Shown here: positions 24,201 to 52,784 of the stretch, piece by piece | Layout of the letters: each line of letters opens with the position of its first letter | Numbering within the stretch: position 1 is the first letter of the stretch | Assembly (NCBI GenBank): GCA_902544525.1 | Contig: CACCCN010000002.1 | Location: forward strand, 81,416 to 145,415 | DNA from: an uncultured Pelagibacteraceae bacterium | Lineage (GTDB): Bacteria > Pseudomonadota > Alphaproteobacteria > Pelagibacterales > AG-422-B15 | DNA: 64,000 bases | Reading direction: 5' to 3' | Position numbers and translations under genes: made by a program | Notes under the pieces: model-generated | The model's database searches: none | Told to the model about the DNA's origin: nothing | Seen by the model: the letters and a program-made list of their open reading frames with translations, nothing else

Positions 24201-25373
24201 ATGACTAAAAATATAACTATTGTCGGACTGGGTTATGTAGGCTTCTCATTATCATTATTAGTTTCTCAAAATTTTAATGTTATTGGATTGGATATTGACA
24301 AAGAAAAAGTAGCTAATGTAAATAAAAAAATCTCACCTATCGTTGATAGTGATGCAGTGAATTTTTTGACAAATAAAAATTTAAAATTAGAAGCAACAAT
24401 AGACTCAAATTATGCATTTAGTAATGCTGATTTTATAGTTATTGCCGTACCTACTGATTATTCACCTAAAACAAAAGAATTCGATACAAATATTGTAAAA
24501 TCTGTAATTAAACAAATACTAACCGTTAATCGAAATGTAACAATAATTATTAAATCAACAATCCCAATTGGTTTCACTGAAAAGATTAGAAAACAAACTA
24601 ATTATAGTGATATCATATTTTCTCCTGAATTTTTAAGAGAAGGTAAGTCTTTATATGACTATCAATATCCATCTAGAATTATCATAGGAGAAAATACCTC
24701 AACTGCAAAAGAGTTTGGTACAATACTAAAAAACCTTACAGTTAAAAAAGATGTACCATTAATATTTATGAAATCAAAAGAAGCTGAGGCTGTAAAATTA
24801 TTTTCAAATACTTATCTTGCCATGAGAGTTGCTTTTTTTAATGAGTTAGATACATTTTCAGAAATTAGTGATCTCAACACTTCAAATATAATTAAGGGAA
24901 TATCTTTAGATGATAGAATAGGCAATTACTATAATAATCCTTCTTTCGGCTATGGTGGATACTGCTTACCAAAAGATACTCGCCAGTTATTAAGCAATTA
25001 TAAAAATATTCCAAATAAAATAATTAAATCAGTTATAGAATCAAATGATACTCGTAAGAAATTCATAGTAGAATCAATTATAAAGAAGAATCCAGGTACT
25101 GTAGGAATTTATAGACTCACTATGAAAGAAGGGTCAGATAATTTCAAAGAGAGTGCAATTTTAGAAATAGCAAATATCTTAATAAAAAAAAATTTAAAAG
25201 TAATAATTTTTGAACCATATATTAATGAAAATACTTACAATAATTTTAAATGCTATAGCGATCTTAAAAAATTTATAAATCATAGTGATTTAATAATTGC
25301 CAATAGACTTAATAAAGACTTAAAAGAGGTTAAACACAAAGTTTATTCAAGAGATATATTTAGAAAAGACTAG
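24201..25373 (+). CDS. ugd: UDP-glucose 6-dehydrogenase-like nucleotide-sugar dehydrogenase
   Basis: ITIVGLGYVGFSLSLLVSQNFNVIGLDID; VPTDYSPKTKEFDT; SPEFLREGKSLYDYQYPSRIIIGE; FGYGGYCLPKDTRQLL. Confidence 0.92.
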   Translation: MTKNITIVGLGYVGFSLSLLVSQNFNVIGLDIDKEKVANVNKKISPIVDSDAVNFLTNKNLKLEATIDSNYAFSNADFIVIAVPTDYSPKTKEFDTNIVKSVIKQILTVNRNVTIIIKSTIPIGFTEKIRKQTNYSDIIFSPEFLREGKSLYDYQYPSRIIIGENTSTAKEFGTILKNLTVKKDVPLIFMKSKEAEAVKLFSNTYLAMRVAFFNELDTFSEISDLNTSNIIKGISLDDRIGNYYNNPSFGYGGYCLPKDTRQLLSNYKNIPNKIIKSVIESNDTRKKFIVESIIKKNPGTVGIYRLTMKEGSDNFKESAILEIANILIKKNLKVIIFEPYINENTYNNFKCYSDLKKFINHSDLIIANRLNKDLKEVKHKVYSRDIFRKD

Positions 25374-36045: not shown

Positions 36046-36951
36046 TTAAGCATTACAGAAAATTAAGATTTCTTTAATATTATTTCTTATATCATAGCTG
36101 ACAAAATCTAGTTTACTTTTTTTAATTTTATCTATATTAAATTCAAAATTTAAATTATTAGATTTATTATTTCCTAAATTGATTTTAATTGAACTGTTAA
36201 ATAATTTAAAATACTCTTCTTTAACTATATTGGCTAAATTCTTAATTGATATTGTCTGCCCACTCGCAACATTATAAATATCTGATTTTATTTCTTCATT
36301 TTTAGTTATTATGCTCTCAACTATATTTTCAATACTATTAATTGAAATAAAATCTCTCCTATCCATTCCGTTATTATTAATGTTTATTTGTTTATTTTTA
36401 ATAGCTTGTTGACAAAAATCGTTTACTACTAATGACCAATATGAGTTCTTTTTAATTCTAGAAAGACCAATTACATTTGAGACTCTCAAAATTACCAACT
36501 TTGTACTAGAATTTTTTGCAAGCTCCATACAATACTGTTCTGCCATTAGATTAGATTTAGAATAATTATCATAAGGCAGTGTAGCATCGTCTTCATTGAT
36601 TTCACCAGAAAGTTCTTTTCCATAAACATGTATTGTTGAAAAGAGAACAAAAGTTTTTGTCTTTTTTTTTATAGCTTCTTTAAATAAATCTCTAGCTCCA
36701 AATGAATTAACTATAATTGCTTCTTTTTCATTTCTATTACATTGATCTCTATTTAAGCCAGCAAGATGGATTATCGTGTCAATTTTATTTAACGAATTTT
36801 CAATATCTTCTTTTTTTCTAATATCAATTTGAATTGCATTATCTAAGTTTTTAATTTTTCGAACACCCTTTATTATATTATAATTTTTTTTTATAAGGTA
36901 CGATGAGAGTGATTTTCCAATGAACCCATCTGCACCGGTAATAAGAATCAT
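36046..36951 (-). CDS. NAD-dependent epimerase/dehydratase (SDR), possible nucleotide-sugar 4-reductase/epimerase
   Basis: MILITGADGFIGKSLSSYL; IIHLAGLNRDQ; YDNYSKSNLMAEQYC; RRDFISINSIENIVESI. Confidence 0.9.
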   Translation of the reverse strand: MILITGADGFIGKSLSSYLIKKNYNIIKGVRKIKNLDNAIQIDIRKKEDIENSLNKIDTIIHLAGLNRDQCNRNEKEAIIVNSFGARDLFKEAIKKKTKTFVLFSTIHVYGKELSGEINEDDATLPYDNYSKSNLMAEQYCMELAKNSSTKLVILRVSNVIGLSRIKKNSYWSLVVNDFCQQAIKNKQININNNGMDRRDFISINSIENIVESIITKNEEIKSDIYNVASGQTISIKNLANIVKEEYFKLFNSSIKINLGNNKSNNLNFEFNIDKIKKSKLDFVSYDIRNNIKEILIFCNA

Positions 36952-36954
36952 AAA

Positions 36955-37716
36955 TTATTGCCAGGTTTTGTTATTTTCAGTCCAGATTTTTTGAAGAAGT
37001 TCGTAATCTCGCTTATTATCCATACATTGCCAAAAGCCTTCGTGTTGGAATGCTAATAATTCTTTATTGCTTGTCAATTCTTCTAAAGGTTCCCTCTCTA
37101 AAAGAGTTTCATCAGAATCAATCATATCAAAAAAATCTTTTTTGAAAATAAAAAAACCTCCGTTTATCCAACCTTTTTGCATTTGTGGTTTTTCTTTAAA
37201 ACTAATTACTAAATTATTTGAAATTTCCAGTTCTCCAAATCTAGCTGGTGGTCTCACTCCCGTCACAGTTCCTATTTTTGAGTGAGAATTATGAAATTTT
37301 AAAAGCTGATCAATGTTTACATTAGAAATACCATCTCCATAAGTAACCATAAAATTTTCAGAGCAGATAAATTTTTTCATTCTTTTTACTCTACCACCTG
37401 TCATTGTATTTTTACCAGTCTGCACAAGTCTAATATCAATTTTTTGATCAATATATTCACTGTTATAGTCTAAAACTCTAATAATTTCTTTTTTACAAAT
37501 TTTATCCGAATACTTTTCCTTTAGGAAATATTTAATTATGACATCTGATTTGTAACCCATCGCAATATAAAAATTTTTAATATTATACTTTTGATAGTGG
37601 TCAATAATATGAATTAATATTGGCTTACCTCCAATTTCAATCATTGGTTTTGGAGTAACATCAGTGTACTCTGACAGTCTTGTTCCAAATCCTCCAGCTA
37701 AAATGATAACGTCCAT
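36955..37716 (-). CDS. rfbF: Glucose-1-phosphate cytidylyltransferase
   Basis: MDVIILAGGFGTRLSEYTDVTPKPMIEIGGKPILIHIIDHYQKY; VTYGDGISNVNIDQLLKFH; WQCMDNKRDYELLQKIW. Confidence 0.95.
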   Translation of the reverse strand: MDVIILAGGFGTRLSEYTDVTPKPMIEIGGKPILIHIIDHYQKYNIKNFYIAMGYKSDVIIKYFLKEKYSDKICKKEIIRVLDYNSEYIDQKIDIRLVQTGKNTMTGGRVKRMKKFICSENFMVTYGDGISNVNIDQLLKFHNSHSKIGTVTGVRPPARFGELEISNNLVISFKEKPQMQKGWINGGFFIFKKDFFDMIDSDETLLEREPLEELTSNKELLAFQHEGFWQCMDNKRDYELLQKIWTENNKTWQ

Positions 37717-37723
37717 TGCTTAT

Positions 37724-38149
37724 TCACCATTTATAATTAATCATATTTTGATCAAGTCTTTTAACTTCATTCTCGTCATGAATTATATTCGAGAAGTTTA
37801 AAATAATATTTTTGGAACTACTTGTTCCTTGAAATCCAAACCATATATTTGGTGGAACAAATAAAGATTTGTAATTTTTTGATCCAATTTCCAATACTTT
37901 AAATGGTCCATCTTTATTCGTCGTAAATACAAATTTAACGGATCCAGATGGAACAACTAGATTCATTGTCATTTTAGTATGGAGTTTCCAAGCCTTAATA
38001 AATTTATTTTCTATGAATGAAAAATAAGCTTCTCCAAAATTTTTATAATTTTCGTCACTATTTTTTAAAAATTTTAAAATATTGCCTCCATTGACACTTA
38101 TCTCTTCAAGCTCGAGAGATTTTATTTTACTTAATGTACTTGTGCCCAA
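37724..38149 (-). CDS. dTDP-4-dehydrorhamnose 3,5-epimerase-like cupin protein
   Basis: AWKLHTKMTMNLVVPSGSVKFVF; LFVPPNIWFGFQG; overlaps rfbG. Confidence 0.8.
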   Translation of the reverse strand: MGTSTLSKIKSLELEEISVNGGNILKFLKNSDENYKNFGEAYFSFIENKFIKAWKLHTKMTMNLVVPSGSVKFVFTTNKDGPFKVLEIGSKNYKSLFVPPNIWFGFQGTSSSKNIILNFSNIIHDENEVKRLDQNMINYKW

Positions 38150-39240
38150 TTTAAATTTCTTTCTTTTGCAATTTTTTCATATTCAGAAATTTGACTATTA
38201 GTAATTGTCTGAGTATTTAATTCATTTTTAAAATAGTCTTTATACCAATTAACAGTAAGTTTTATAGTTTCCTCAAACGTTAAAGTAGCGTTCCATTTTA
38301 GAAGTTCCATAGCTTTATCGCAATTAAGCTTTAGTAATCCTGACTCATTATTGAAAGAGGTGTTACTTGCATTAACCCATTTTCCCCCTTTCCAATGAAT
38401 ACTCATAGTGTTAGCTACATCTAGTACAGTATAATTGTACTTATCATTCGGTCCAAAGTTGAATGGTTCACCATGAATCTTTAAACCTTCATTTAAATTC
38501 ATCGCCAAACAAAGATAACCACTTAATGGCTCTAAAACATGCTGCCATGGACGAGTAGAATGAGGGTTTCTAATTTTTACTTCCTTTTTTTTATTCCAAG
38601 CAGTTATAATATCAGGAATTATTCTATCATTTGACCAATCTCCACCACCAATTACATTTCCAGCCCTCCCAATTGATATTCGAACTTTGGAGTTATTGTT
38701 AAAATACGATTTCAAATATGAATATATGGCAAGCTCAGTTGCTGCTTTAGAGCCGCTGTAAGGATCAGAACCTCCCAAAATATCTGTTTCTCTATAGCCC
38801 CATATCCACTCTGAATTTTTATAACATTTATCACTGGTAATTAAAACAACAGTACAATGGTTACTAAGGTTTCTACATGAATCTAATAAGTTAATAGTAC
38901 CTATTACATTTGTCTCCCAGGTGTCTCTAGGATTATTAAGTGATTCCTTTACTAAAGCCTGGGCCGCTAGGTGAAAAATAAAATCAGGTTTTATATCATT
39001 AATAATCGTATTAATTTTTTTGTGATCTCTTATATCTATTCTTATATCATTAATTTTTTTTTCTAAATTAATTTCATCAAAATGGGAGGGAGATGTAATA
39101 GGATCTAAAGCTAATCCAGTGATATTTGCTCCCATTAGGCTCAGCCATGATGTGAGCCAAGATCCTTTAAATCCTGTATGTCCTGTAATAAGAATTTTTT
39201 TACCATTAAATGTTTTATAAAATAGGTTTGATTGATTCAT
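38131..39240 (-). CDS. rfbG: CDP-glucose 4,6-dehydratase
   Basis: KKILITGHTGFKGSWLTSWLSLMGANITGLALDP; TSDKCYKNSEWIWGYRETDILGGSDPYSGSKAATEL; RIIPDIITAW; RPWQHVLEPLSGYL. Confidence 0.96.
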   Translation of the reverse strand: MNQSNLFYKTFNGKKILITGHTGFKGSWLTSWLSLMGANITGLALDPITSPSHFDEINLEKKINDIRIDIRDHKKINTIINDIKPDFIFHLAAQALVKESLNNPRDTWETNVIGTINLLDSCRNLSNHCTVVLITSDKCYKNSEWIWGYRETDILGGSDPYSGSKAATELAIYSYLKSYFNNNSKVRISIGRAGNVIGGGDWSNDRIIPDIITAWNKKKEVKIRNPHSTRPWQHVLEPLSGYLCLAMNLNEGLKIHGEPFNFGPNDKYNYTVLDVANTMSIHWKGGKWVNASNTSFNNESGLLKLNCDKAMELLKWNATLTFEETIKLTVNWYKDYFKNELNTQTITNSQISEYEKIAKERNLNWAQVH

Positions 39241-39441
39241 ACAAGTGATAATCTATTAATGTTTATTTAAAAATATGTACTTTATAAATTTCAAATACAT
39301 AATTACTTACTATCTTTTAACTAATAAACGAGAGATTAAACTAACTTTATTTAGTTGCATAGAATTAATCTGATAAAAAACCACTGTATATAAAACTACT
39401 TCACAAATCATTACCAAAAAAAATAAATATTACTCAATCGG

Positions 39442-40644
39442 CTAAAAATTTACCAGTTTCTCATATATAATTTGAGCTGACGTTATCTGCGCATCATCTG
39501 AATTATCAGAAATATAATTTTTAAAATAATTAATATAATTTTTATATTTTATTGAGATATTTAAATCGTAATAATTATCTTTTTTACTAGAAAGATTTAC
39601 AGATTTTGTACCCAATTCTGTTGCTAAATCTTCGATTGAGGCCCTATAATTGAATAAATAATTTTGAGAAGTCATGAAAATTAAAGGCTTATTATAAATG
39701 ACAGAAAAATTAACTGCTGTACTATTGTGTTGAATAACAAAAAAAGAATTTTTTATGAGTTCTAAAGTCTTATTCTTGAATGCTTTTCTACCATACGGGT
39801 TATCTTCGATGCTATATTGAGCTTTTGGATAAACTGCAATCACGACTTCGCAATTATATTTATTTTCTAGATAGTCAAAAAAATTACATATCTCCTTATA
39901 AAAAATATTTTTTTCACAAAGATTTTTTTTAAACCCATGATAATATGGATCTTTATGATTAGGAACATCCTCATCGATATATAGAATATATTTTTTTTTA
40001 AATTGTTTGCGAAGTAAATCATTACTTTCAGTATTTGAATTTTTATTTAAAAGAAATTCATTATATGCAAATGAATGAGCGCTAATTTTTAAGGAATCTG
40101 AATGTACATCAAAAGATATATTTTTTTTTGCATTATTTCCTGCATAAATAATAAACTTAGGCGAAATTTTATTTACCTTATTTTTGAATAAAAAAAAATT
40201 GACTGATCTTTTTTTTATCATTTCAAGTTTTTCAATTAAAATTTTTTGATTTAGTATAATAGTTCTGATAATGCCCATAAATGAAAGTTTATTAATAGGA
40301 TAATAAGATAATCTGAAATAACCCCATGTAATAAAATTCTTTTCAAGTTCTAAAAAAATCCATTCTGATTTAGTATTTAAACTTAAGCTTGTCATAACGA
40401 AAGTTTCTTTATTTATTTGTTTTGCTAATTTTTTGAAAGAATTTTTATCTAAAAAATTTATAATTTTTAAATTTTGATAACTATTAATAAAATCAGATTT
40501 TGGAATGGAGATGTTTTTAAGAATAAATTTGGAGATGTCCCATATTTCAATTTTTAAATTTTTTTTTAAATAAAAATCTATTTCGAATCTTTTGAAATCT
40601 CTTTCTAAAAATACATTTTCGTAAATAATTATAATTTTTTTCAT
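39442..40644 (-). CDS. Uncharacterised protein of polysaccharide clusters; candidate glycosyltransferase (possibly nonulosonate transferase)
   Basis: IIYENVFLERDFKRFEIDFYLKKNLKIEIWDI; FFVIQHNSTAVNFSVIYNKPLIFMTSQNY resembles GT-B-like/sialyltransferase-like C-terminal segment; next to neuA. Confidence 0.6.
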   Translation of the reverse strand: MKKIIIIYENVFLERDFKRFEIDFYLKKNLKIEIWDISKFILKNISIPKSDFINSYQNLKIINFLDKNSFKKLAKQINKETFVMTSLSLNTKSEWIFLELEKNFITWGYFRLSYYPINKLSFMGIIRTIILNQKILIEKLEMIKKRSVNFFLFKNKVNKISPKFIIYAGNNAKKNISFDVHSDSLKISAHSFAYNEFLLNKNSNTESNDLLRKQFKKKYILYIDEDVPNHKDPYYHGFKKNLCEKNIFYKEICNFFDYLENKYNCEVVIAVYPKAQYSIEDNPYGRKAFKNKTLELIKNSFFVIQHNSTAVNFSVIYNKPLIFMTSQNYLFNYRASIEDLATELGTKSVNLSSKKDNYYDLNISIKYKNYINYFKNYISDNSDDAQITSAQIIYEKLVNF

Positions 40645-40738
40645 AAACTTAATTTTTAATCATTATTGAAAGAGTCTTATAGAGTATTAGAAAACTCATG
40701 AGTTGCCTCACTTTTTTTTACAATTATCATAAAATTTT

Positions 40739-41431
40739 TTAATATAGTTGACTAATTATTCTAGCTAATCTTAAGTCACTCATATCATCAATATCAATAC
40801 TATAATCTGAATTAAATTTATAAACTATTGACTTATTCTCTACAATGAAAGATTTATACTTCTTAATAAAAGAAGTAGTAGACAAATAAAAACTTCCATC
40901 AATAAAATAATAGTCACTTTCGTACTCTTGTCTTCCACTAATTTTTTTTTTATTTTTCTTAAGATAAGACCAATTTGATTTATTAGTCTTAATACATTCT
41001 CTTGGATGCTCTTTCATTTTGACTGCACCAAAGATAGATTCGATTTTTTTATGTTTAAATTTATTTATAGCAGCTTTTATCTCTTTTAAATTTCTAAATG
41101 GCGAAGTTGGTTGCAATAGGAGCACTGCATCTGGATCATAATTTTCAATTTTGTTGAGCCAATTTAGTGCATGTAACACAGCATCAACAACTTTACTTTT
41201 ATCAGTTGACAAGGAAATAGGTCTAACATAGTTGCTACTAATTCCTTTTTTTTTACAATAATTTAAGATTTCATTATTATCAGAAGATACAAATGTCCTA
41301 AAATTTTTTGGTAATTTTCTTGCTATATCTAAACTATAATCAATTAGTTTTTTATTGCCAATTATGGAGAGATTTTTTCTTTTTATACCTTTTGATCCAC
41401 CTCTTGCAGGAATAAACACAAGAACATTCAT
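40739..41431 (-). CDS. neuA: CMP-nonulosonate (acylneuraminate) cytidylyltransferase, NeuA/LegF-like
   Basis: FIPARGGSKGIKRKNLSIIGNKKLIDYSLDIA; VLLLQPTSPFRNLKEIKAAI; YSIDIDDMSDLRLA. Confidence 0.92.
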   Translation of the reverse strand: MNVLVFIPARGGSKGIKRKNLSIIGNKKLIDYSLDIARKLPKNFRTFVSSDNNEILNYCKKKGISSNYVRPISLSTDKSKVVDAVLHALNWLNKIENYDPDAVLLLQPTSPFRNLKEIKAAINKFKHKKIESIFGAVKMKEHPRECIKTNKSNWSYLKKNKKKISGRQEYESDYYFIDGSFYLSTTSFIKKYKSFIVENKSIVYKFNSDYSIDIDDMSDLRLARIISQLY

Positions 41432-42564
41432 TTAAATATTTTCTCTAATTCTTTTGCTAGGGACTTATAATCATTTATTTTTTTCTTCAATTGAATTGGA
41501 ATTGCTATAGATGTTTTTAAAATATCTCTTGATATTTTTGAGCGAATTATATTTTTTTTTGAAAGTGCGTGATCCCAATAAAATGAACAATGCCACTCAA
41601 TTGCATCAGGTAGATTCTTAGTTCCAAATTCTAACTTATTTAAAAGATTAATTACCTGTTTTTTTAGTAATTTATTTTTTACAAAAAATATATAAGTATC
41701 GTAAATTAAATCACTTCCTTTTGGTATTGTTCTCATTTCAAGATATTTACCCACAATTTTATCAATAGCAAAATATCTGCGTTTATTTTCTGAAATTATA
41801 TAATCGAGTTTTTTTAATTGTTCTTTTCCAATTACAGCCTGAATTTCTGTCATTCTATAATTGAAACCATATATTTTTTTTGTATCTGTTCCTCTTGTTT
41901 TCCGTGGGTTATTTTGGTGACCATGATCGTGATATTCCTTAGCAAAATTATAAATTTTTTTTGACTTAGTATGTATTGTTCCTCCCTCTCCACACGTTAT
42001 TATCTTTCCAAAATCTAAACTTGCAACTCCTACATCGCCAATTGTACCTAGGTATTTTTTATTAAATCTGCCACCAAGAGCCTCGCAGTTATCCTCTAAA
42101 ACTTTAATTTTATATTTTTTTGCAATTTTAAGAATTTCTTTCATATTGGCTGGAACTCCAAGCATATGAACTGGAATTATTGCCTTAGTTTTCTTTGAAA
42201 TTAAATTTTCAATTTCTAAAGGATCAATATTTAATGAGTTATCGATGTTGGCTATAACCGGTTTCGCACCAATATCTAGTATTGCTTCAACTGTTGCAAT
42301 AAAGTTAAAAGCTTGAGTTATTACTTCGTCTCCTCTTTTAACCCCAATAGATAAAAGACCTATTTTTATTGCTGATGTTCCAGATGAAACTGCTAGAGTA
42401 TACTTAGATTTTAATTTTTTATTAAAATTTTGTTCAAATTCTCTAACATGATAATTTTTTCTAAGATTATTGAAACCATGCGCAAACAGAATACCATTTT
42501 CTTTTTTAAACAATCTATTAACTGCATTATACTCCTTACTGTCAATGATTTCAAACCCTGGCAT
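41428..42564 (-). CDS. DegT/DnrJ/EryC1/StrS aminotransferase, resembling KdnA (8-amino-3,8-dideoxy-octulosonate aminotransferase)
   Basis: MPGFEIIDSKEYNAVN; AHGFNNLRKNYHVREFEQNF; LDFGKIITCGEGGTI; YHDHGHQNNPRKTRGTDTKKIYGFNYRMTEIQAVIG; NLPDAIEWHCSFYWDH. Confidence 0.85.
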   Translation of the reverse strand: MPGFEIIDSKEYNAVNRLFKKENGILFAHGFNNLRKNYHVREFEQNFNKKLKSKYTLAVSSGTSAIKIGLLSIGVKRGDEVITQAFNFIATVEAILDIGAKPVIANIDNSLNIDPLEIENLISKKTKAIIPVHMLGVPANMKEILKIAKKYKIKVLEDNCEALGGRFNKKYLGTIGDVGVASLDFGKIITCGEGGTIHTKSKKIYNFAKEYHDHGHQNNPRKTRGTDTKKIYGFNYRMTEIQAVIGKEQLKKLDYIISENKRRYFAIDKIVGKYLEMRTIPKGSDLIYDTYIFFVKNKLLKKQVINLLNKLEFGTKNLPDAIEWHCSFYWDHALSKKNIIRSKISRDILKTSIAIPIQLKKKINDYKSLAKELEKIFK

Positions 42565-43303
42565 ATTTTGTAATACTATTTTTGAGCTCTATCTCATACG
42601 TTTTTTTTCTGTTGAGATCGATTTTTGAAGACTTACCTATATATCTGATTGTTAATCCTCTTCTCGCATGCCGGCTAGTGTTTTTTTTGCTACCATGAAC
42701 AACCAGGCAATTATGAATTATACAATCGCCTCTTTTTATGTTTGGAATATTTTTTTTTAGAAGCTTCATGCTTTTTGGATATTTTAAAGTCTGTGATGAA
42801 CCAGGAGCGAATGATTGTGCATGTTCTAGTAATCCAAAATGGTGAGATTTATCATAATAAAAAACACCTCCATTTTTTTCATTAGAGTCATCGAGAGCAA
42901 TCCAAATTGTCAATCCTTTTGAATTATCCACACACCAATAATAATTATCTTGATGCATAGGAGAGGCTAGTCCCACTTTAGCAGGCTTTGCGAATAATTC
43001 GGAACCAAAATCTTTAATACTATCTTCAAGTAAGATTGAGGAAATTTTTTTTAAAACTTTATTATTTTTTAATTTTTTAGACCACCTCCAATTATTCATA
43101 AAGTGAACTGAATTTATAATATTATTCTTAGTTTTGTTTATATCTCTACCTTTGAAATTTTTTAATCTTAGCAAAAAAGATTCTTCTAAGTCTTTGCCGG
43201 CTGTAATTATATCTTTTTTATCAAAAATATTTCTAGCAACTATATACCCCTTAGTATCATATTCTTTTTTTAATCTTTGTATTTTTTTATTATCAAAAAT
43301 CAT
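42551..43303 (-). CDS. Phytanoyl-CoA dioxygenase (PhyH) family Fe(II)/2-oxoglutarate oxygenase
   Basis: SPMHQDNYYWCVDNSKGLTIWIALDDSNEKNGGVFYYDKSH; distal CLVVHGSKKNTS then R in RRGLTIRY: HxD...H facial triad. Confidence 0.88.
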   Translation of the reverse strand: MIFDNKKIQRLKKEYDTKGYIVARNIFDKKDIITAGKDLEESFLLRLKNFKGRDINKTKNNIINSVHFMNNWRWSKKLKNNKVLKKISSILLEDSIKDFGSELFAKPAKVGLASPMHQDNYYWCVDNSKGLTIWIALDDSNEKNGGVFYYDKSHHFGLLEHAQSFAPGSSQTLKYPKSMKLLKKNIPNIKRGDCIIHNCLVVHGSKKNTSRHARRGLTIRYIGKSSKIDLNRKKTYEIELKNSITKYARV

Positions 43304-43310
43304 TTTTATT

Positions 43311-44033
43311 CTATTTTATTTTTTTGCAGATAATTAAATATGGTGTAGATATTATCTCAAGTCCATTTCTGGTAATTCTTGTTCCATCGTCTAATTTGTG
43401 GGTATAGGTTCGTCTGTCGTCCTCAGTTTTTTCAATATCCATGTCTAAATTAAATTTTTTCAATATTACATCAAAATTATTTTTTTCGAACTCTTTTTGA
43501 ACTGTTTTCAGGCTAAATCTGTTCCATCCTTTTTCCCATACATCACTATCTACTGCCTTTACTCTTGTTATAACATCAAAATTTGATTCATTAAAAGAAC
43601 CAAATACATAAATTATCCCATTTTCTGAAACTAAACTAATAAGATTTTCAATCCATGGTGTGACCTCATCAAAAATTGTATGAACACCATCTAATATGAC
43701 AGCATCAAACTTTTTGCCACCAAATTTTTTCTCAACAGATGCTTTATCAAAAATATCTATATGATAAAATTTAGCTGAAGAACAATTATTTTTCGCTTTA
43801 AGTAGTAACTCTTCTAATATGTCGGCCCCACTAATTTCAACGTTCGGAAGCTCTTTATTCACGTATGATATGAAAACTCCTGTAGCACAACCAATATCTA
43901 ATAAACTAAATTTATTGCTATGATTTTTTTTTATTTCATTTAATAAAAATTTGAAACTTTCCTTAACCAAAAATTTTTCGTTTAAATAGAAATTATCATG
44001 TATTCTTTTGCTATTTTTAAAAATCTTTTCCAT
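43311..44033 (-). CDS. Class I SAM-dependent methyltransferase
   Basis: SLLDIGCATGVFISYVNKELPNVEISGADI; AVILDGVHTIFDEV; ENGIIYVFGSFNE. Confidence 0.88.
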   Translation of the reverse strand: MEKIFKNSKRIHDNFYLNEKFLVKESFKFLLNEIKKNHSNKFSLLDIGCATGVFISYVNKELPNVEISGADILEELLLKAKNNCSSAKFYHIDIFDKASVEKKFGGKKFDAVILDGVHTIFDEVTPWIENLISLVSENGIIYVFGSFNESNFDVITRVKAVDSDVWEKGWNRFSLKTVQKEFEKNNFDVILKKFNLDMDIEKTEDDRRTYTHKLDDGTRITRNGLEIISTPYLIICKKIK

Positions 44034-45107
44034 TTATTCTTCAAAATTCAATTTATTTAATGCTTTCTTATATTCATTCCATTGACCAATATCAACCCAT
44101 GCTTCTTGACTTACAGGAAAAACCCCTATTCTTTTTTTTAAAATAATTAACTTTTCGATTAATTGGGGTAAGTCAAACTTTGTATTTTTTGGAATTTGAT
44201 TAATTACTTCTTTACTCATAATATACATGCCAGTATTTGCCAAAAGGCTAATATTTGGTTTTTCATTAATTTTAACTAGTAATCCATCTTTATTAATTTT
44301 GCAGTCTCCATAAGGAATAGTATAATTTCTAAAAGAAGCTACAATAGTAATTATATTTTTATTTTTTTTATGATATTTGATTATGTCTGCGTAATCACAA
44401 TTAATAAGAATATCACAATTAGTGACAAAAAATATGGGTTTAATACTTTTAGTAATCTTTGACAGAGCGCCTATAGTGCCTAAAGGTTTTTTTTCTTCAA
44501 TAAAGGATATTTTATTTTCTTGATTCTTTTCATCAAAAAAAGCTTTTAAAATTCTACTTTTATGATTAATTGATAAAAAATATTCACTTACTCCAAAGTC
44601 ATTAAATTTATCCATAATGTGATCTATTATAGGTTTTCCATTTATTGGAATGAGTGGTTTAGGCAGTATTGAAGTGAAAGGTTCTAGTCTTGCTCCCTTT
44701 CCTCCCGCCATGATAACTACTGGTAATGAACTTTTTTTTATATTTTTCTTACTTACTTTTTGGAATACATCATCCATTTTGATAATTTTAGTAATAGTTT
44801 TGTTAGAAGTAACTATCGGAATTAAATCTAATAAAAAATTTAAAAATAAATTTTGCGCTTTTAGTTTGGTATATTTTTCCTCTGTCAAAAACTTGGGTTT
44901 TTTGTTAAATATAGTGGTAATTTTGTATGATAGCTTCTTTCCATTTAAGATAGCTTTTCTCACATCCCCATCACTTAAAGTCCCAAGCATTTTATTGTTT
45001 TTGTCAACAACAACTAGACATTTTGATCCACTGTTATCTATAGAATTGAGAGAATCCTGAATTGATGCAGTCTTATAAATGAGAAACTTATTAATGTCTA
45101 AACTCAT
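44034..45107 (-). CDS. CBS-domain sugar-phosphate nucleotidyltransferase (PtmE/LegX-like)
   Basis: N-terminal CBS (LVVVDKNNKMLGTLSDGDVRKAIL) then VVIMAGGKGARLEPFTSILPKPLIPINGKPIIDHIMDKF. Confidence 0.9.
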   Translation of the reverse strand: MSLDINKFLIYKTASIQDSLNSIDNSGSKCLVVVDKNNKMLGTLSDGDVRKAILNGKKLSYKITTIFNKKPKFLTEEKYTKLKAQNLFLNFLLDLIPIVTSNKTITKIIKMDDVFQKVSKKNIKKSSLPVVIMAGGKGARLEPFTSILPKPLIPINGKPIIDHIMDKFNDFGVSEYFLSINHKSRILKAFFDEKNQENKISFIEEKKPLGTIGALSKITKSIKPIFFVTNCDILINCDYADIIKYHKKNKNIITIVASFRNYTIPYGDCKINKDGLLVKINEKPNISLLANTGMYIMSKEVINQIPKNTKFDLPQLIEKLIILKKRIGVFPVSQEAWVDIGQWNEYKKALNKLNFEE

Positions 45108-45118
45108 AATAGTAATTG

Positions 45119-46282
45119 TTAATTAATATCGAAAAATAATTTTTTAGTATTATTATTATTTAAATTGATTTTTTTTAAAATATCTAATATTTTTTTTGAT
45201 GAATTTAGCTTTCCATATGGATTAGTATAAATTGACATATCTCTATTTAGATTTAATTTGATGGCTTTATTTAAAGCCTTAGCGATAGATAATCTATCCT
45301 TTTTAGCATTTATAACAGACTTTGCGAATACTCTTCCAGTCTGTCTATCTCCAATATTCACAGACGGTGTACAGAAATAAGGGGCTTCAATAATTCCACT
45401 TGAGGAGTTTCCAACTACAATATTACAATGTTTTAATGCAGAATAGTATAATTTCTGCCCCATAGAATGATAACAAATTGAATTTGAGGGATTTTTTTTA
45501 ATAAAATCTTTAATTTTTTTATTAATAATCCCGCCTTGAGCATCCGCACTAGATAAAGTGAATATAATGGAACTATTTTTAATTTTTTTAATTTCACTAA
45601 TCATATTTTTAAATGCAAGCATTTCAAAACTTTGATTTGATGTTTCTGGATGAAAAGTAATTAGAAAATTATTTTTTTTAAGCTTTAGATTTATCTGTCT
45701 TTCAAAATTTTTTTTTGAAAATAATCTTTCACTTTTGATAGCTTCATAAGCTAAAGCACCAACATAAAAAACATTTTTTGGAAATTCTCCTAACTGTATA
45801 ACTCTTTTTTTGTATTCTTTAGTAGAAACAAAGTGCCATTTTGACATTTTTGTTATTGAATGACGCATATTTTCATCATTTGATCCAAGTGTTTTTTCTC
45901 CTCCATGAATATGAGCAATAGGTATATTGATATTCATTGCTGAAAATGTAGCAGCAAATATTTCATATCTATCGCCTAGTACAACTACTATATCCGGATC
46001 AAGTTTTTTATATGCATCGACAAAACCTAGAATAGCATTTGCAGTTAGTTTGGTGGTATCGTATTTATTGTTATTTTTTTTTATTGGAAGATATATTTTT
46101 TTATCAATTTTAAAACCATCGTCTATAATTTCTTTATGCGTATTACCATAAAACTTTGATAAATGTGTACCCGTTACTATTATTTGAAGCTTCAATAATT
46201 TTTCATTAGCTAGTCTAGAAATTAATTTTTTCAAAAGTCCATATTCTGCTCTACTTCCAGTTACAACACAAATTTTTTTCAT
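45119..46282 (-). CDS. neuC: UDP-N-acetylglucosamine 2-epimerase (hydrolysing), NeuC/LegG-like
   Basis: CVVTGSRAEYGLLKKLI; VVLGDRYEIFAATFSAMNINIPIAHIHGGEKTLGSNDENMRHSITKMS; VGNSSSGIIEAP. Confidence 0.94.
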   Translation of the reverse strand: MKKICVVTGSRAEYGLLKKLISRLANEKLLKLQIIVTGTHLSKFYGNTHKEIIDDGFKIDKKIYLPIKKNNNKYDTTKLTANAILGFVDAYKKLDPDIVVVLGDRYEIFAATFSAMNINIPIAHIHGGEKTLGSNDENMRHSITKMSKWHFVSTKEYKKRVIQLGEFPKNVFYVGALAYEAIKSERLFSKKNFERQINLKLKKNNFLITFHPETSNQSFEMLAFKNMISEIKKIKNSSIIFTLSSADAQGGIINKKIKDFIKKNPSNSICYHSMGQKLYYSALKHCNIVVGNSSSGIIEAPYFCTPSVNIGDRQTGRVFAKSVINAKKDRLSIAKALNKAIKLNLNRDMSIYTNPYGKLNSSKKILDILKKINLNNNNTKKLFFDIN

Positions 46283-46312: not shown

Positions 46313-47539
46313 TTAGTCATCAACTCCATCTTTATTAACTGTATGCCTTAGGTACCATTTGCCATCTACTTCTATCCATAAATGTGGTGATCGAAAATCA
46401 TCACACCGCTTATGGAAGTAATCTTCTTTTATGTCTAGATAATTCAATATTTCTTTTAAATACCTATCTGGTAATTCACCATCAAATCTCTTGGCCAAAG
46501 CTTTTCCTTCCTCCCTAGTGAGGTGATTATTTCGTATCTCCTGAGAAGCTTCGTCAGTAGCCCTTCCAATGCCAAACTTAATAAATCTTGTATACCAGTG
46601 TAAGTCATCAATTTTATCGTCAATACTATTATACTTACTATATGTACCTTGTGATCTATGAGGCCTCGCTCTAAAATTTGTGTTTTCAACTGCAAAATAG
46701 TAAGCCTCTTGTGGTATCCACTTAATATAATATCCAAGATAATGAATTTGAATATTCTCTTTATATTCACTGTCTAAAAGTGGTAAGAATATTTTTAAGT
46801 CCTTAAGGTCCAATCCATAAACTTCCTTTAACTCCTTTAAGCTTTTTCCTGCAAGCATAATTGAATCAAAATCTTTGATCGAAAAAAATGATTTATCTCT
46901 TAAAGATTGATTATTATCTGCAATAGGATTTCCGTACTCCGCTTCATTTTCTCCGTAAAAAACTAAATCAATTCCATATTTTGTTGCAATTTTTGGAGCT
47001 AAATTTTTTTGACCTAGTATAAAAGTTTGAAATGGATGTAATAACGTTTCTATAGCGATTTTTGTTAGCTTTCTCATCACTTCTCCAGAAGGTTTGTATG
47101 TAATATTATCAAATCCTCCTATATCTAACCAATTCTTATAGTTTTCATAACCATAGTCTGTGTACATTATAGGTGGCCATGTAATCGTCAAAGGATTCAT
47201 TCCATATTTATGCTTCAAAAGATATGAGGCATAAACACTATCTTTACCCCCACTTCCAGGCACTAGACAATCATATTCTCCATCACTTCTCCTATAATTA
47301 TCTAACAACTTCAGAAGCTGATCCTCTCTATTCTTCCAGTCAATTTCTGTTTTTATTATAGCTTGAGTACAAGCATCACAAATATTTTCATCACTAAAAT
47401 TAACATAATTAGCATTTTTTCTGTCGACTGAATGCTGAAATTCAGGTACTGAAGCCGGATACTGATTTGAATTTACGCAAATACTACAAAATTTAACCTC
47501 ACTTGGTAAGTTGTAATATGTTTCTAATTTTTTTTTCAT
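46313..47539 (-). CDS. N-acetyl sugar amidotransferase, WbpG/PtmG-like (copy 1)
   Basis: CxxC...CDAC zinc motifs; PP-loop CLVPGSGGKDSVYASYLLK; KWIPQEAYYFAVENTNF; followed by HisH and HisF homologs. Confidence 0.92.
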   Translation of the reverse strand: MKKKLETYYNLPSEVKFCSICVNSNQYPASVPEFQHSVDRKNANYVNFSDENICDACTQAIIKTEIDWKNREDQLLKLLDNYRRSDGEYDCLVPGSGGKDSVYASYLLKHKYGMNPLTITWPPIMYTDYGYENYKNWLDIGGFDNITYKPSGEVMRKLTKIAIETLLHPFQTFILGQKNLAPKIATKYGIDLVFYGENEAEYGNPIADNNQSLRDKSFFSIKDFDSIMLAGKSLKELKEVYGLDLKDLKIFLPLLDSEYKENIQIHYLGYYIKWIPQEAYYFAVENTNFRARPHRSQGTYSKYNSIDDKIDDLHWYTRFIKFGIGRATDEASQEIRNNHLTREEGKALAKRFDGELPDRYLKEILNYLDIKEDYFHKRCDDFRSPHLWIEVDGKWYLRHTVNKDGVDD

Positions 47540-48165
47540 AAAAGTTTTTTTATTTCATTAAAAATTTTTATTCCATTATTACCGCTTTTCTCTGGATGAA
47601 ATTGAAAGGCGGTAACATTTTCCGTAATTATTGAAGAACAATAAGTTGTATCTTGGTAAGTTGTGGAAGTCAATTCAATATCCTTTGACTGAGGTGTAAC
47701 ATAGTATGAGTGAACAAAATACATAAATTCTTTATTAAGATTATTTTTCATAACAGAGTTTTTATAATTGTTATTGTTGAATGATACTTTATTCCAGCCA
47801 ACGTGAGGTACTATAAGTTTTTTTTTTACATTCGAATCAAACCTTGAAACTTTTCCTTTAATAATTCCTAGGCCTTGTGTTGATCCAAATTCTGCACTTT
47901 CATCAAATAACAATTGCATTCCTAAACAAACACCAAAAAAAGGTTTACCAGTACTTATAAAATCATAAATTGATTTATCTAAATTTTTATTTTTTATATT
48001 TTGTATAGCTTCTCTAAATGCTCCAACACCTGGCAGTATAGCAATCTTAGAATTTAAGATTACTTCATGGTCATCAGTTATAATAGAATTAATTCCTATA
48101 TTATTACATGCATTCTGAACACTATAAAGATTATTCATTCCATAATTTATTATTGATATTTCCAT
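47536..48165 (-). CDS. hisH: HisH-like glutamine amidotransferase (copy 1)
   Basis: INYGMNNLYSVQNA; ILPGVGAFREA; GVCLGMQLLFDES; FQFHPEKSG (Cys-His-Glu). Confidence 0.93.
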   Translation of the reverse strand: MEISIINYGMNNLYSVQNACNNIGINSIITDDHEVILNSKIAILPGVGAFREAIQNIKNKNLDKSIYDFISTGKPFFGVCLGMQLLFDESAEFGSTQGLGIIKGKVSRFDSNVKKKLIVPHVGWNKVSFNNNNYKNSVMKNNLNKEFMYFVHSYYVTPQSKDIELTSTTYQDTTYCSSIITENVTAFQFHPEKSGNNGIKIFNEIKKLL

Positions 48166-48169
48166 ATTT

Positions 48170-49015
48170 CTACTTATCTCGAATCGGTACTATATCCTTG
48201 AGTTCATTTTTTATTTTTTTTATATCAATTGGTCCAAATGACTTAAATTTTTTAAAATTAGATACAAAATTTTTATTTCCCTCTATAGTCTCATTATCAA
48301 TAAACTCATTATCAAATAATGCTCCATAGTGAATAATCGACGCTATTGCAACAGCATTTGCACCACTTAAAAAGGCTTGCTCAATGTGCTTTGTCACACC
48401 TATACCCCCATGGGCTATTAAAGGTACTGAAATTAAATCTCTTATTTTTTCAATTAAGTATGTATCGCACCCAGTGCCGGTGCCATCTCTATCAATCGAT
48501 GTAATCATAATTTCTCCAGCACCTAAGTCCTCTAATTTTTTACACCATTCGAATATGTCTATTCCAGTATATTCTCTCCCGTTATCTGTGTAAGCAAGAT
48601 AAGTCTTATTTTCAGACTCTATAGTCTCAACAGTTGCAACAATTGTTGATGAACCAAATATTCTTGATGCTTCTTTAATTATATTTGGGTTATTAATTGC
48701 TGCTGTGTTTATTGCTACTTTATCTGCACCTGCTTCTAACGCATTACTTATGTCGGAGATTTCTCTTATTCCTCCACCGACTGTAAGTGGAATAGAAATT
48801 GTTTTTGCAGTATTTCTTATAAATTCTAAAATTGAATTTCTATTATATAAACTTGCAACTACATCTTGATAAAATAGTTCATCAGCTCCATCTATAAAAT
48901 ATTTATTAGCAAACTGACTAGGAGATCCAAGCACTCTTAAACCTTCTAAATGAATACCTTTTACTAAATTAGGTCCTTTTATGTCTAAGCGCGCTATTAT
49001 TCTTGGAAAAATCAT
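48170..49015 (-). CDS. hisF: HisF-like subunit (copy 1; WbpI/HisF2 type)
   Basis: RIIARLDIKGPNLVKGIHLEGLRVLG; TVGGGIREISDISNALEAGADKVAINTAAI; SIDRDGTGTGCD. Confidence 0.92.
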   Translation of the reverse strand: MIFPRIIARLDIKGPNLVKGIHLEGLRVLGSPSQFANKYFIDGADELFYQDVVASLYNRNSILEFIRNTAKTISIPLTVGGGIREISDISNALEAGADKVAINTAAINNPNIIKEASRIFGSSTIVATVETIESENKTYLAYTDNGREYTGIDIFEWCKKLEDLGAGEIMITSIDRDGTGTGCDTYLIEKIRDLISVPLIAHGGIGVTKHIEQAFLSGANAVAIASIIHYGALFDNEFIDNETIEGNKNFVSNFKKFKSFGPIDIKKIKNELKDIVPIRDK

Positions 49016-49019
49016 AATA

Positions 49020-50045
49020 TTATTTTACGATAAATTCATCAGGTTTATAATCTCTGTTGGCTTTTTTTCCAATAAATTTATCCCACTCCAGTGGAGATAT
49101 TCCAGTACCTGGTCTTTTAATTGTAATATTTTTTTTATTAAATATTTCACCTTTTTTAATATAAGAATTAGCTACTAAAGATTTTCTTACTAACTTAATA
49201 TTATTTTTTTCCCGCGGAACTGGTACTTTTTTTCCGTCACCATAAATTTGCGAAATATTTCTAATTGACTTAACCATTTGTGAAAACTCTTTTTCCTCCA
49301 GGCTGGCCTTGTGATCTGGACCAGGTAATTTTTTATCGATAGTAAAATGCTTTTCAATAACTGAAGCACCTAGAGTTGCTGCGGCTATAGCAACATCATT
49401 TCCAATTGTATGATCTGAATATCCAACTTTTACACCTAACTTATCTCTCATCAAAATCATAGCAGATAGGTTTACGTCTTTTAGATTTGTAGGATAGTCA
49501 GTAGTACAATGCAAAACAGTAATTTTATTTTTTGGAAGCCCATTGGATTTTAAAATTTCAATAGCACTTGATACTTCACTTAGTGTGGCCATTCCACTAG
49601 ACATAATTACATTTTTTTTTTGTTTTGCTATTTCTCTAAGATAGGGGAGATTATTTATCTCACCAGATGGAATTTTTATTTTTTTTAAATTTAATTTTTT
49701 TATATCTAAAATACAGTCTACATCAAAGGGGCTAAGCATAAATTCTATTTTTATTTTTTTACAATAGTTAGAGAGTTTTTTCATTTGTTTTATAGATAAC
49801 TCAAGTTCTTTTAATATTTGAAATTGAGTTTTTTTTTGTAAAGAGCTATTTTCTCTAATATACTTTGGTTTGTCTGCTTTTTGAGTGATTAAATTATTAG
49901 CTTTAAATAATTGAAATTTTACAATATCTGCCCCACATCTTTTAGCTGCCTTTATTAACTTAAAGGCGAGACTAACTCTGCCATTATGATTTACACCAGC
50001 TTCAGCAATTATAATTACTTTTTTTGGAAACTTAAATTTGTTCAT
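49020..50045 (-). CDS. neuB: N-acetylneuraminate/nonulosonate synthase (LegI/NeuB-like) with C-terminal SAF domain
   Basis: IIIAEAGVNHNGRVSLAFKLIKAAKRCGADIVKFQ; VLHCTTDYPT; VGYSDHTIGNDVAIAAATLGASVIEKHFTIDKKLPGPDHKASL; SLVANSYIKKGEIFNKKNITIKRPGTGISP. Start chosen at MNKFKF. Confidence 0.95.
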   Translation of the reverse strand: MNKFKFPKKVIIIAEAGVNHNGRVSLAFKLIKAAKRCGADIVKFQLFKANNLITQKADKPKYIRENSSLQKKTQFQILKELELSIKQMKKLSNYCKKIKIEFMLSPFDVDCILDIKKLNLKKIKIPSGEINNLPYLREIAKQKKNVIMSSGMATLSEVSSAIEILKSNGLPKNKITVLHCTTDYPTNLKDVNLSAMILMRDKLGVKVGYSDHTIGNDVAIAAATLGASVIEKHFTIDKKLPGPDHKASLEEKEFSQMVKSIRNISQIYGDGKKVPVPREKNNIKLVRKSLVANSYIKKGEIFNKKNITIKRPGTGISPLEWDKFIGKKANRDYKPDEFIVK

Positions 50046-50634
50046 TATCCCCAATATCTTTTGTGATTGTGGATCCCATCTTTATAAAACATTGTGATCC
50101 AATTGAAATACCCTCTCTAATAATACAACCACTTCCAATGAATGTATTATTTCCAATTTTGACATTGCCATTAATGATTGTTCCTGTAGATACATGAGAA
50201 TTATTTCCAATTTGAGATTCGTGCTCAATAATTACAGATGTATTAATAATAGAGTTATGTCCTATTTGAACTTTGGGACCAATTACCACACTATGCATTA
50301 TAATAGTAGACTCTTCTATAAAATTTTTATCTGCTGTGATTGCTGACGGTGCAATAATACAAGGCAAATTATAATCTAAGCTTTTAAGAAGGTTATAAGC
50401 TTTTAACCTAGGCTCAAAATTTTTTATTTGCCCTATACCAATAAATGCATAATTAATTTTTTTTCTTAACTTTTTTAAATCCGAGTCATTACCAATCAAA
50501 GGATAACTTGATTTTGATGAAAAATTTTTATAATTATCAATAATCCCATGAATATTATAAGTAGATAAAGATTCAATAATACTTATAGATGATAAGCTAT
50601 GACCTCCTGAACCAATAATAATTATGTTATTCAT
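50032..50634 (-). CDS. neuD: NeuD/LegH-like sugar O/N-acetyltransferase (left-handed beta-helix)
   Basis: NIIIIGSGGHSLSSISII; hexapeptide repeats IGHNSIINTSVIIEHESQIGNNSHVSTGTIINGNVKIGNNTFIGSG. Confidence 0.9.
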   Translation of the reverse strand: MNNIIIIGSGGHSLSSISIIESLSTYNIHGIIDNYKNFSSKSSYPLIGNDSDLKKLRKKINYAFIGIGQIKNFEPRLKAYNLLKSLDYNLPCIIAPSAITADKNFIEESTIIMHSVVIGPKVQIGHNSIINTSVIIEHESQIGNNSHVSTGTIINGNVKIGNNTFIGSGCIIREGISIGSQCFIKMGSTITKDIGDNEQI

Positions 50635-51787
50635 TTATTATTGCAACCACGCGTTTGATATCTTTTGTAGTAAGTGAAATACTGCTTGGCAAGCATAGTG
50701 TTCTATTTACCAGAATTAGAGCATTGCTAATATTATATTTTTCACATTTTTTATATATCTTCTGTAAATGGTTTAATTGCCAAATTGGTCTTACTTCAAT
50801 TTTATTTTTTTTAAACATTTCAATTTTTTTTAGTAAGTTTTTTTTTGTATTACAGTCAATAAATTCAACAAGGTTCAACCAATGATTACTGCTAGCAAAT
50901 TTTGGAATCTCTTTAAATAATATTTTATTGTTTTTACCAATTAATTTTTTATAATGTTGATATATTAATTTCTTTTTTTTAAGGTATTGATTTATTTTCT
51001 CTAGCTGTGCCAATCCTAATGCTGCCTGAATATTAGTTAATCTGTAGTTATATCCAACTTCATTATGAATAAACTCAAGAGTATTATCTTTTGCTGTTGT
51101 TGTTAAATATTTAGCTTTTTGTGCTAATAATTTGTTATTTGTTATTATCATACCACCGCCACCAGATGTAATGACTTTATTGCCATTGAATGATAAACAG
51201 CCAAATTTTCCAATTGTACCAACATGCTTATTTTTATTATCACCTTTTTCAAAAAAATTACCCAAACCTTCAGCTGCATCTTCAATTATTGAAATATTTT
51301 TACTTTTACATACTTTCAAAAGTTCATCCAGTAAGACTGATCTTCCATAAACATGGACAACTATAATGGCTAAAATTTTTCTTTTTGTTTTCTTATTTAT
51401 AGTTATTCCGTTTTTAAAAATCGTCTTTGTATTTAAAAATTCAATAGTCTTTTTAATATCTATTGTGTAATTATCATCAACATCCATAAATACAGGTTTG
51501 GCATTACAATAATTAATAGCATTTATTGGTGCTATAAACGATATAGTTGGAACTATAACTTCATCATTTCTTGATATCCCTGATAGTATTAGTGATATAT
51601 GCAGTGCGGAAGTTCCGTTTATACAGGCTATTGCATATTTAGCCTTAGTATAATCTTCGATTTTATTCTCAAATAAATCTACATACTTGCCGGTAGATGA
51701 GACCCAATTTGTCTTAAGGCAGTCTTTTATATATTTCCACTCATTTCCAGATATATGTGGTACTGATAATGGTATAAAGTTATTCAT
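50627..51787 (-). CDS. LegC family aminotransferase
   Basis: FIPLSVPHISGNEWKYIKDCLKTNWVSSTGKYVDLFE; VHVYGRSVLLDELL; LSFNGNKVITSGGGGMI; GYNYRLTNIQAALGLAQLE. Confidence 0.92.
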   Translation of the reverse strand: MNNFIPLSVPHISGNEWKYIKDCLKTNWVSSTGKYVDLFENKIEDYTKAKYAIACINGTSALHISLILSGISRNDEVIVPTISFIAPINAINYCNAKPVFMDVDDNYTIDIKKTIEFLNTKTIFKNGITINKKTKRKILAIIVVHVYGRSVLLDELLKVCKSKNISIIEDAAEGLGNFFEKGDNKNKHVGTIGKFGCLSFNGNKVITSGGGGMIITNNKLLAQKAKYLTTTAKDNTLEFIHNEVGYNYRLTNIQAALGLAQLEKINQYLKKKKLIYQHYKKLIGKNNKILFKEIPKFASSNHWLNLVEFIDCNTKKNLLKKIEMFKKNKIEVRPIWQLNHLQKIYKKCEKYNISNALILVNRTLCLPSSISLTTKDIKRVVAIINE

Positions 51788-52784
51788 GTAATTGATAATT
51801 TATATTATAATTTCCATAACGATTTTTATTTGAATCAATATCAATAAACTCATTATGATTTAGTGCATTTAAAATTTCCTCTATACCATCTCTTATGCTG
51901 AACTTTGGAATGAAATCTAGTATATTTTTTACTTTATTAAAATTTACAATATAGTTCCTTGGATCGCTTCCATTAGATGAATATGAAACATTAGAAGAGT
52001 CTATAAAACTTGTTATTTCACTGACAATTTGTTTTTTTGTTGCATGGTTTGATTGTCCTCCAGCATTAAATATTTCGAAGGATACTTTATTTTTTGGTGA
52101 ACTTATAACAATATCAATTAACCTCGCAAAATCCTTTACATGACAATAAGGCCTCCACGTATTTTCATCATAAATTGAAAGCTTATTATTTTTAAATAGC
52201 TCATAAGTAAATTCATTTACAGTTAAATCAAATCTCATCCTTTCTGAAAGACCAAAAGCTGTTGCGAATCTTAATATAGTTGGTACATAATCAACTTTTC
52301 CCTTTAAAGACATTAAAAACTTTTCTGCATCTACTTTATGTTTAGCGTATAATGATAAAGGTTTTAAATCAGTATTTTCATCTGCTTTAATATTATTATT
52401 TACTAAGCCATAATTTGAACAAGTAGAAATAAAAATTAACCTCTCAATATTCTTTTCTGATAATAATAAAAATAATTTTTTGATACCAATCAAATTTATA
52501 GCTTGTGACTCTTCAGGATATTTTTTAGTAATTGGATCACCAACTAAACCTCCTAAGATTACAGCATAATTTACTCCAGATAAGTTTTGAATTAAACTTT
52601 TAGAATCACAAAAATCTATATTTACAACTTCAAGGTTTTTATTATTTATTTTTTTAATGATAAATGAATTATCATAGATAAATAAATCATATATCAGAAC
52701 CTTATAGCCCTTATCTAAAAAATATTGAGCTATTACTGATCCTATATAACCTCCACCGCCAATTAATAAAATTTTTTTATACAT
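51780..52784 (-). CDS. NAD-dependent epimerase/dehydratase (extended SDR)
   Basis: ILLIGGGGYIGSVIAQYFLDKGYKVLIYDL; GLVGDP; STCSNYGLVNNN; SLYAKHKVDAEKFL; WRPYCHVKDFARLI. Confidence 0.9.
   Translation of the reverse strand: MYKKILLIGGGGYIGSVIAQYFLDKGYKVLIYDLFIYDNSFIIKKINNKNLEVVNIDFCDSKSLIQNLSGVNYAVILGGLVGDPITKKYPEESQAINLIGIKKLFLLLSEKNIERLIFISTCSNYGLVNNNIKADENTDLKPLSLYAKHKVDAEKFLMSLKGKVDYVPTILRFATAFGLSERMRFDLTVNEFTYELFKNNKLSIYDENTWRPYCHVKDFARLIDIVISSPKNKVSFEIFNAGGQSNHATKKQIVSEITSFIDSSNVSYSSNGSDPRNYIVNFNKVKNILDFIPKFSIRDGIEEILNALNHNEFIDIDSNKNRYGNYNINYQLHE

Follow-up and report, generated by a model that had tools for sequence, protein, structure and literature searches.

The window analyzed here, a stretch of 64,000 nucleotides, is part of the 1.26 Mb genome of an uncultured Pelagibacteraceae bacterium and contains a closely packed run of minus-strand genes extending from position 52784 to position 40739. 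The genome is classed as SAR11-type through its close matches to named Pelagibacteraceae records. The first eight genes of the run encode SDR, LegC, NeuD, NeuB, HisF, HisH, WbuX and NeuC homologues, and are followed by genes for a PtmE-like nucleotidyltransferase, a methyltransferase, a PhyH oxygenase, a KdnA-like transaminase and NeuA (Table 1). The name PtmE is taken over from Leg clusters. The positions, the open reading frames and the 14-nt overlap of the oxygenase and transaminase genes had been given correctly in the original prediction, from which the strand was absent.

Table 1. Genes of the nonulosonate operon, with positions counted within the window.
Product	Position	Strand	Remarks
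NeuA/PseF-like CMP-nonulosonate cytidylyltransferase	40739..41431	-	Under the PseF cut-off
KdnA-like DegT-family PLP transaminase, 378 aa	41428..42564	-	neuA downstream (4-nt overlap), oxygenase gene upstream (14-nt overlap)
PhyH-family Fe(II)/2-oxoglutarate oxygenase, 250 aa	42551..43303	-	Occupies the slot of KdnB/Fe-ADH in other KdnA clusters
SAM methyltransferase	43311..44033	-	Operon member; hardly conserved alongside the oxygenase-transaminase pair
CBS-domain and nucleotidyltransferase protein, PtmE-like	44034..45107	-	From family matches and neighbors
NeuC-type hydrolysing UDP-GlcNAc 2-epimerase	45119..46282	-	433 bits, cut-off 236
WbuX-family N-acetyl sugar amidotransferase	46313..47539	-	316 bits, cut-off 203
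HisH-like glutaminase subunit of amidotransferase	47536..48165	-	
HisF/WbuZ-like subunit of amidotransferase	48170..49015	-	
NeuB-type nonulosonate synthase	49020..50054	-	451 bits, cut-off 400
NeuD/PglD-type sugar N-acetyltransferase	50032..50634	-	172 bits, cut-off 161
LegC-family C4 aminotransferase (standard nonulosonate step)	50627..51787	-	460 bits, cut-off 420
Extended SDR, probable NDP-sugar C4-dehydrogenase	51780..52784	-	LegB 52 bits, cut-off 475; STCSNYG, no dehydratase TDE

LegC, NeuB, NeuC and NeuD of the legionaminic acid pathway each score above their curated cut-offs, and the block does contain the separate LegC-type aminotransferase that had been predicted for it. The SDR encoded at 51780 was considered as a LegB candidate and rejected on its score, and LegB was not found at the cut-off of 475 bits in the genome to which the window belongs (best TIGR04180 match, 110.5 bits). 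The nearest solved relative of this SDR is 6vo6/6vo8 (162 bits, full length), which we believe to be Cj1427. Cj1427 has been described as a C4-dehydrogenase (PMC10680097). The STCSNYG motif of the SDR is also found in most family members from other KdnA loci.

The WbuX-HisH-HisF set (46313-49015) is expected to convert an N-acetyl group of the sugar into an acetamidino group, and the methyltransferase (43311-44033) may accompany this set. According to the original prediction, the methyltransferase decorates the newly formed amine. However, a relative was present in only one other PhyH-type locus examined (L087), and because this locus, like the window, also has the WbuX amidotransferase, the methyltransferase probably serves another decoration. 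It is a peripheral, mostly unconserved addition.

Downstream of neuA, positions 39442-40644 encode a 400-aa protein without a Pfam match, relatives of which lie beside kdnA/neuA in many loci; this protein possibly represents a new glycosyltransferase family. On a Prochlorococcus contig (L124:10001-15373), kdnA is followed by rfbG, a cupin gene, rfbF, an SDR gene and a glycosyltransferase gene, in nearly the same order as at 36046-42564 of the window (55% identity for rfbG, 51% for rfbF). This near-identical gene order suggests that SAR11 and Prochlorococcus share surface-sugar gene sets.

Families of the transaminase and the oxygenase

The DegT protein belongs to PF01041 (Pfam) and has the MPGFE start and the DHGH segment that had led to its being likened to KdnA. 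In a single-sequence search of all PDB, its nearest sequence was KdnA 5k8b (E=1.8e-60). Furthermore, a family profile built from twelve relatives matched 5k8b over its full length (positions 1-379) with 343 bits, the next family scoring 237. Lys187, which is invariant in set A1 and aligns with a lysine of 5k8b, is presumably the PLP-binding lysine. The C-terminal substrate region diverges from that of KdnA. The protein falls in the KdnA clade and not in an unrelated one, and the idea that it is an ordinary LegC duplicate was rejected since the KdnA profile fits far better.

The oxygenase belongs to PF05721 (Pfam, E=3.6e-24). The HxD...H motif reported in the original prediction is intact: His117, Asp119 and His203, together with Arg214, are invariant in 22 relatives that include divergent Prochlorococcus sequences. 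Among known structures, the AlphaFold model (pLDDT 90.7) matches 2OG proline hydroxylases best (TM about 0.8 to one of them), and GriE, EctD, MysH and SnoN/SnoK appear lower in the list of structural matches. The HxD...H triad, the putative 2OG-binding Arg and the double-stranded beta-helix fold of the model thus point to a 2OG oxygenase. KdnB is defined by a type-III Fe-ADH fold and sequence, and the oxygenase lies outside this family (PF05721, not PF00465); it may work in the place of KdnB without being a family member.

Relatives of the PhyH protein were not found in viral contigs nor PhyH matches in phage records, and plasmids held distant PhyH matches only. No DegT match was found in phage records at E<=1e-40 or in plasmids at E<=1e-60.

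Oxidizing partners of KdnA-like transaminases

Among 397 genomes of the same order, the transaminase (E<1e-120) was found in 14, a close oxygenase (E<1e-40) in 15 and both in 12, compared with about 0.5 genomes expected by chance (Fisher p=1.5e-18, uncorrected for relatedness). The survey called for in the original prediction thus revealed a strong and conserved co-occurrence of PhyH with the KdnA-like enzyme. One genome with the transaminase only (G621, L158) has an Fe-ADH gene 2 nt upstream of kdnA, and in another (G629) kdnA lies on a short contig with no recognized partner. Conversely, three close PhyH relatives within the order (L034, L046, L047) had no recognized kdnA in the fetched stretch. 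Across the class, the sampled genomes other than the one under study had only weak PhyH matches, and the order is the informative rank. Distant SAR11 relatives of PhyH (L021, L023-L033) were set aside as KdnA-like genes were not beside them. In several SAR11 genomes (L024-L032), distant PhyH relatives without KdnA adjoin a GMC-like flavoprotein, a second conserved pairing of PhyH, here with GMC.

A KdnA-like profile scan of 84,980 species yielded 204 relatives, from which 80 loci of many phyla were taken up and 79 were usable. In these loci, which include near-copies and are not independent samples, one type of carbonyl-forming partner almost always excludes the others. With partners labeled by home-made profile thresholds (PhyH >40, Fe-ADH >200, GMC >60 bits), the sole partner was an Fe-ADH of the KdnB superfamily in 31 loci, PhyH in 20 and a GMC flavoprotein in 18. 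PhyH and Fe-ADH stood together in a single locus (L051, with the Fe-ADH adjacent), and no recognized partner was found in 9, several of them at contig ends. Directly upstream of kdnA, we found Fe-ADH in 28 loci and PhyH in 15. In some loci, PhyH and kdnA do not adjoin each other or differ in strand (L041, L042, L057, L059, L060, L070). Other DegT genes of the same loci rarely neighbored PhyH or Fe-ADH (3/33 versus 44/79 for KdnA-like genes, p=2e-6).

GMC genes usually lie two genes downstream of kdnA, behind neuA, and their identity was confirmed by Pfam in three loci. Alphaproteobacterial kdnA-neuA-GMC loci comprise L063-L079, L084 and L125. With the GMC flavoprotein, there seem to be three classes of enzyme that form the carbonyl for KdnA-like transaminases.

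The same gene context was also found with different partners: neuC-ptmE-FeADH-kdnA-neuA (L115) versus neuC-ptmE-PhyH-kdnA-neuA (L061, L066), and FeADH-kdnA-neuA-neuB-neuC (L104) versus PhyH-kdnA-neuA-neuB-neuC (L100). The place of the transaminase is therefore constant while the presumed supplier of the carbonyl changes. The Fe-ADH of the Bacteroidetes locus L086 is a genuine KdnB, scoring 334 bits against 5k8c, and ten Fe-ADHs group with KdnB itself, the remainder falling in different Fe-ADH subfamilies. KdnB-kdnA-neuA-neuB-neuC loci occur in Bacteroidetes and others (L086, L089, L093-L099) and imply an aminated Neu-type nonulosonate beyond the Kdo8N setting. The partners also seem to be split by habitat, with oxygen-using enzymes in marine aerobes and NAD-dependent Fe-ADHs in many groundwater and sediment lineages.

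Phylogenetic analysis rejected a single clade of PhyH-paired transaminases (AU p=0.00017). On the KdnA tree, which came from a quick search, has many weak inner branches and includes near-copy loci, 6 changes of the PhyH label are required, and strongly supported branches force at least 4 of these, indicating that partners were exchanged repeatedly. The window itself provides an example. Its transaminase is most identical (62%) to that of L051, an Fe-ADH-paired locus, whereas its oxygenase is nearest (50-53%) to those of L034, L035 and L036, the transaminases of which, where present, are only 43-46% identical. Hence, the closest relatives of the oxygenase accompany transaminases of another KdnA clade, and the two genes were re-paired.

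No Fe-ADH was found in the window, confirming that KdnB is not encoded nearby, and the slot of the linked Fe-ADH is taken by PhyH. Elsewhere in the genome, we found two clear Fe-ADH genes and one match below the cut-off. The two unlinked Fe-ADHs could act in trans for the transaminase; their neighbors are other metabolic genes, not sugar genes.

Proposed reaction and comparison with known systems

The oxygenase and the KdnA-like transaminase probably form a two-enzyme module that adds an extra amine to a nonulosonate in the manner of KdnB-KdnA, with the oxygenase as the oxidizing half. The proposal is based on computed features: the family membership of both proteins is established, the oxygenase motif is intact, the two genes are conserved as neighbors, PhyH, Fe-ADH and GMC partners almost exclude one another, and PhyH shares its gene slot with Fe-ADH. 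On the simplest reading of the sequences, PhyH would replace KdnB in forming the carbonyl for the KdnA-like enzyme. The core of the original prediction, that the oxygenase creates a carbonyl which the transaminase converts into an amine, is strongly supported by comparative genomics; its C8 site and its role for the methyltransferase are not.

We infer the reaction, its site, its product and, from the analogy to KdnB-KdnA, its order, in which the free sugar would be modified first and activated with CMP afterwards. Using Fe(II), 2-oxoglutarate and O2, the oxygenase would hydroxylate an alcohol carbon of the free nonulosonate, and the resulting gem-diol would collapse to an aldehyde or ketone. 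The KdnA-like PLP enzyme would transaminate that carbonyl, and NeuA would then activate the amino sugar, making it the CMP-linked donor for an O-antigen or capsule whose genes surround the cluster. The hydroxyl most likely to react is the terminal one at C9, so that a 9-amino-9-deoxy nonulosonate would result. Our full proposal is more tentative: SAR11 and Prochlorococcus may make an undescribed 9-amino-9-deoxy nonulosonate in which PhyH, in an O2-dependent step, converts the terminal alcohol into the aldehyde used by a KdnA-type enzyme, this step being, across microbes, a plug-in filled by KdnB, other Fe-ADHs, GMC or 2OG oxygenases.

Amination at C8, as originally proposed, would require a 9-deoxy Leg-type sugar, the secondary C8 alcohol of which would be oxidized to a ketone and yield an 8-amino nonulosonate. 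We consider this unlikely, although the cluster encodes a LegC-family C4 aminotransferase, a PglF/WbpM-type dehydratase encoded at 25370-27268, about 23 kb off, could feed LegC a 6-deoxy sugar, and matches to PseB/FnlA dehydratases were obtained for nine SDRs from KdnA loci (A4 set). C9 is favored over C8 because the SDR adjoining LegC resembles a C4-dehydrogenase and not LegB, and the C9 hydroxyl would stay. Furthermore, the genome lacks LegB at the cut-off and the sampled SDRs are far from it (best E 4e-42), most KdnA loci have only neuC/neuB/neuA, a gene set implying a sugar of Neu type that carries a hydroxyl at C9, and the position used by KdnB-KdnA is a terminal primary alcohol.

PhyH enzymes mostly catalyze C-H hydroxylation and seldom stop at carbonyls. 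The role of the oxygenase could then be purely decorative, a hydroxylation of the nonulosonate or of some other chain sugar, with an unlinked dehydrogenase providing the carbonyl for the transaminase. Hydroxylation being the commonest PhyH reaction, the two Fe-ADH genes elsewhere in the genome and the PhyH relatives without KdnA all fit such a role. Nevertheless, we regard it as doubtful given the near-mutual exclusion and common slot with Fe-ADH, the repeated exchange on the tree and the location of the unlinked Fe-ADHs among other metabolic genes.

Synthesis of Kdo8N from Kdo for the lipopolysaccharide core, as by KdnB-KdnA in Shewanella, is improbable. KdnA is the closest characterized relative, and two loci resemble true Kdo8N loci (Fe-ADH-kdnA-kdsB in L128 and L129, the latter with waaA and kdsD-like genes, all names being our own reading). 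However, the genes around the pair in the window, and in the majority of PhyH loci, are neuA/neuB/neuC and not Kdo genes, a context that suggests a nonulosonate rather than 8-oxo-Kdo as the substrate of the transaminase, and the C-terminal substrate region of the transaminase differs from that of KdnA. Finally, it is very improbable that the DegT protein acts as an ordinary NDP-sugar aminotransferase and resembles KdnA only incidentally: DegT enzymes are diverse and the cluster already uses LegC, but the affinity to KdnA is clearly above that to all other solved DegT proteins, the N-terminal MPG and the C-terminal WH region are common to KdnA, and the oxidizing partner is conserved.

If true, a module in which a 2OG oxygenase oxidizes a sialic-acid-like sugar prior to transamination would be new chemistry for bacterial glycan biosynthesis, and would predict amino-nonulosonates on some of the ocean's most abundant cells. 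It would also provide a simple genomic rule, the neighbor of kdnA predicting such sugars. Surface sugars of this type are, in our view, likely phage receptors. Searches of open-licence literature found no paper linking 9-amino-9-deoxy with nonulosonic, and none linking PhyH with nonulosonic acid, which, given that scope, is weak evidence of novelty. Judged from the genes, the oxygenase-transaminase pair, which occurs in SAR11 and some Prochlorococcus, appears to be an exchangeable and previously undescribed route to such sugars.

Like legionaminic acid clusters (legB/C, ptmE, neuB/C/D/A), the window has LegC, NeuB, NeuC, NeuD, NeuA and a PtmE-like protein; unlike them, it has a C4-dehydrogenase-like SDR in the place of LegB, and the oxygenase-transaminase pair has no counterpart there. 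The KdnA-KdnB system (KdnA 5k8b, KdnB 5k8c) makes Kdo8N in Shewanella oneidensis (Gattis et al. 2013, as cited in PMC5125639). As in that system, a KdnA-family transaminase gene lies beside, and usually directly downstream of, the gene for an oxidizing enzyme, and other phyla have a true KdnB at the same position inside nonulosonate clusters (L086). In contrast, oxidation in the window would fall to an Fe(II)/2OG oxygenase unrelated to KdnB, and the surrounding genes are those of a neuA/B/C nonulosonate operon rather than Kdo genes. LipL is a 2OG oxygenase of nucleoside antibiotic synthesis that yields uridine-5'-aldehyde for a PLP enzyme (PMC6384614). It hydroxylates a terminal oxygenated carbon to give the aldehyde, as we propose for the window pair; however, its substrate is UMP, from which phosphate is lost, and it works with LipK, a PLP-dependent transaldolase. 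LipL shows that a PLP enzyme can receive its aldehyde from a 2OG oxygenase, and provides a chemical precedent for the pair described here.
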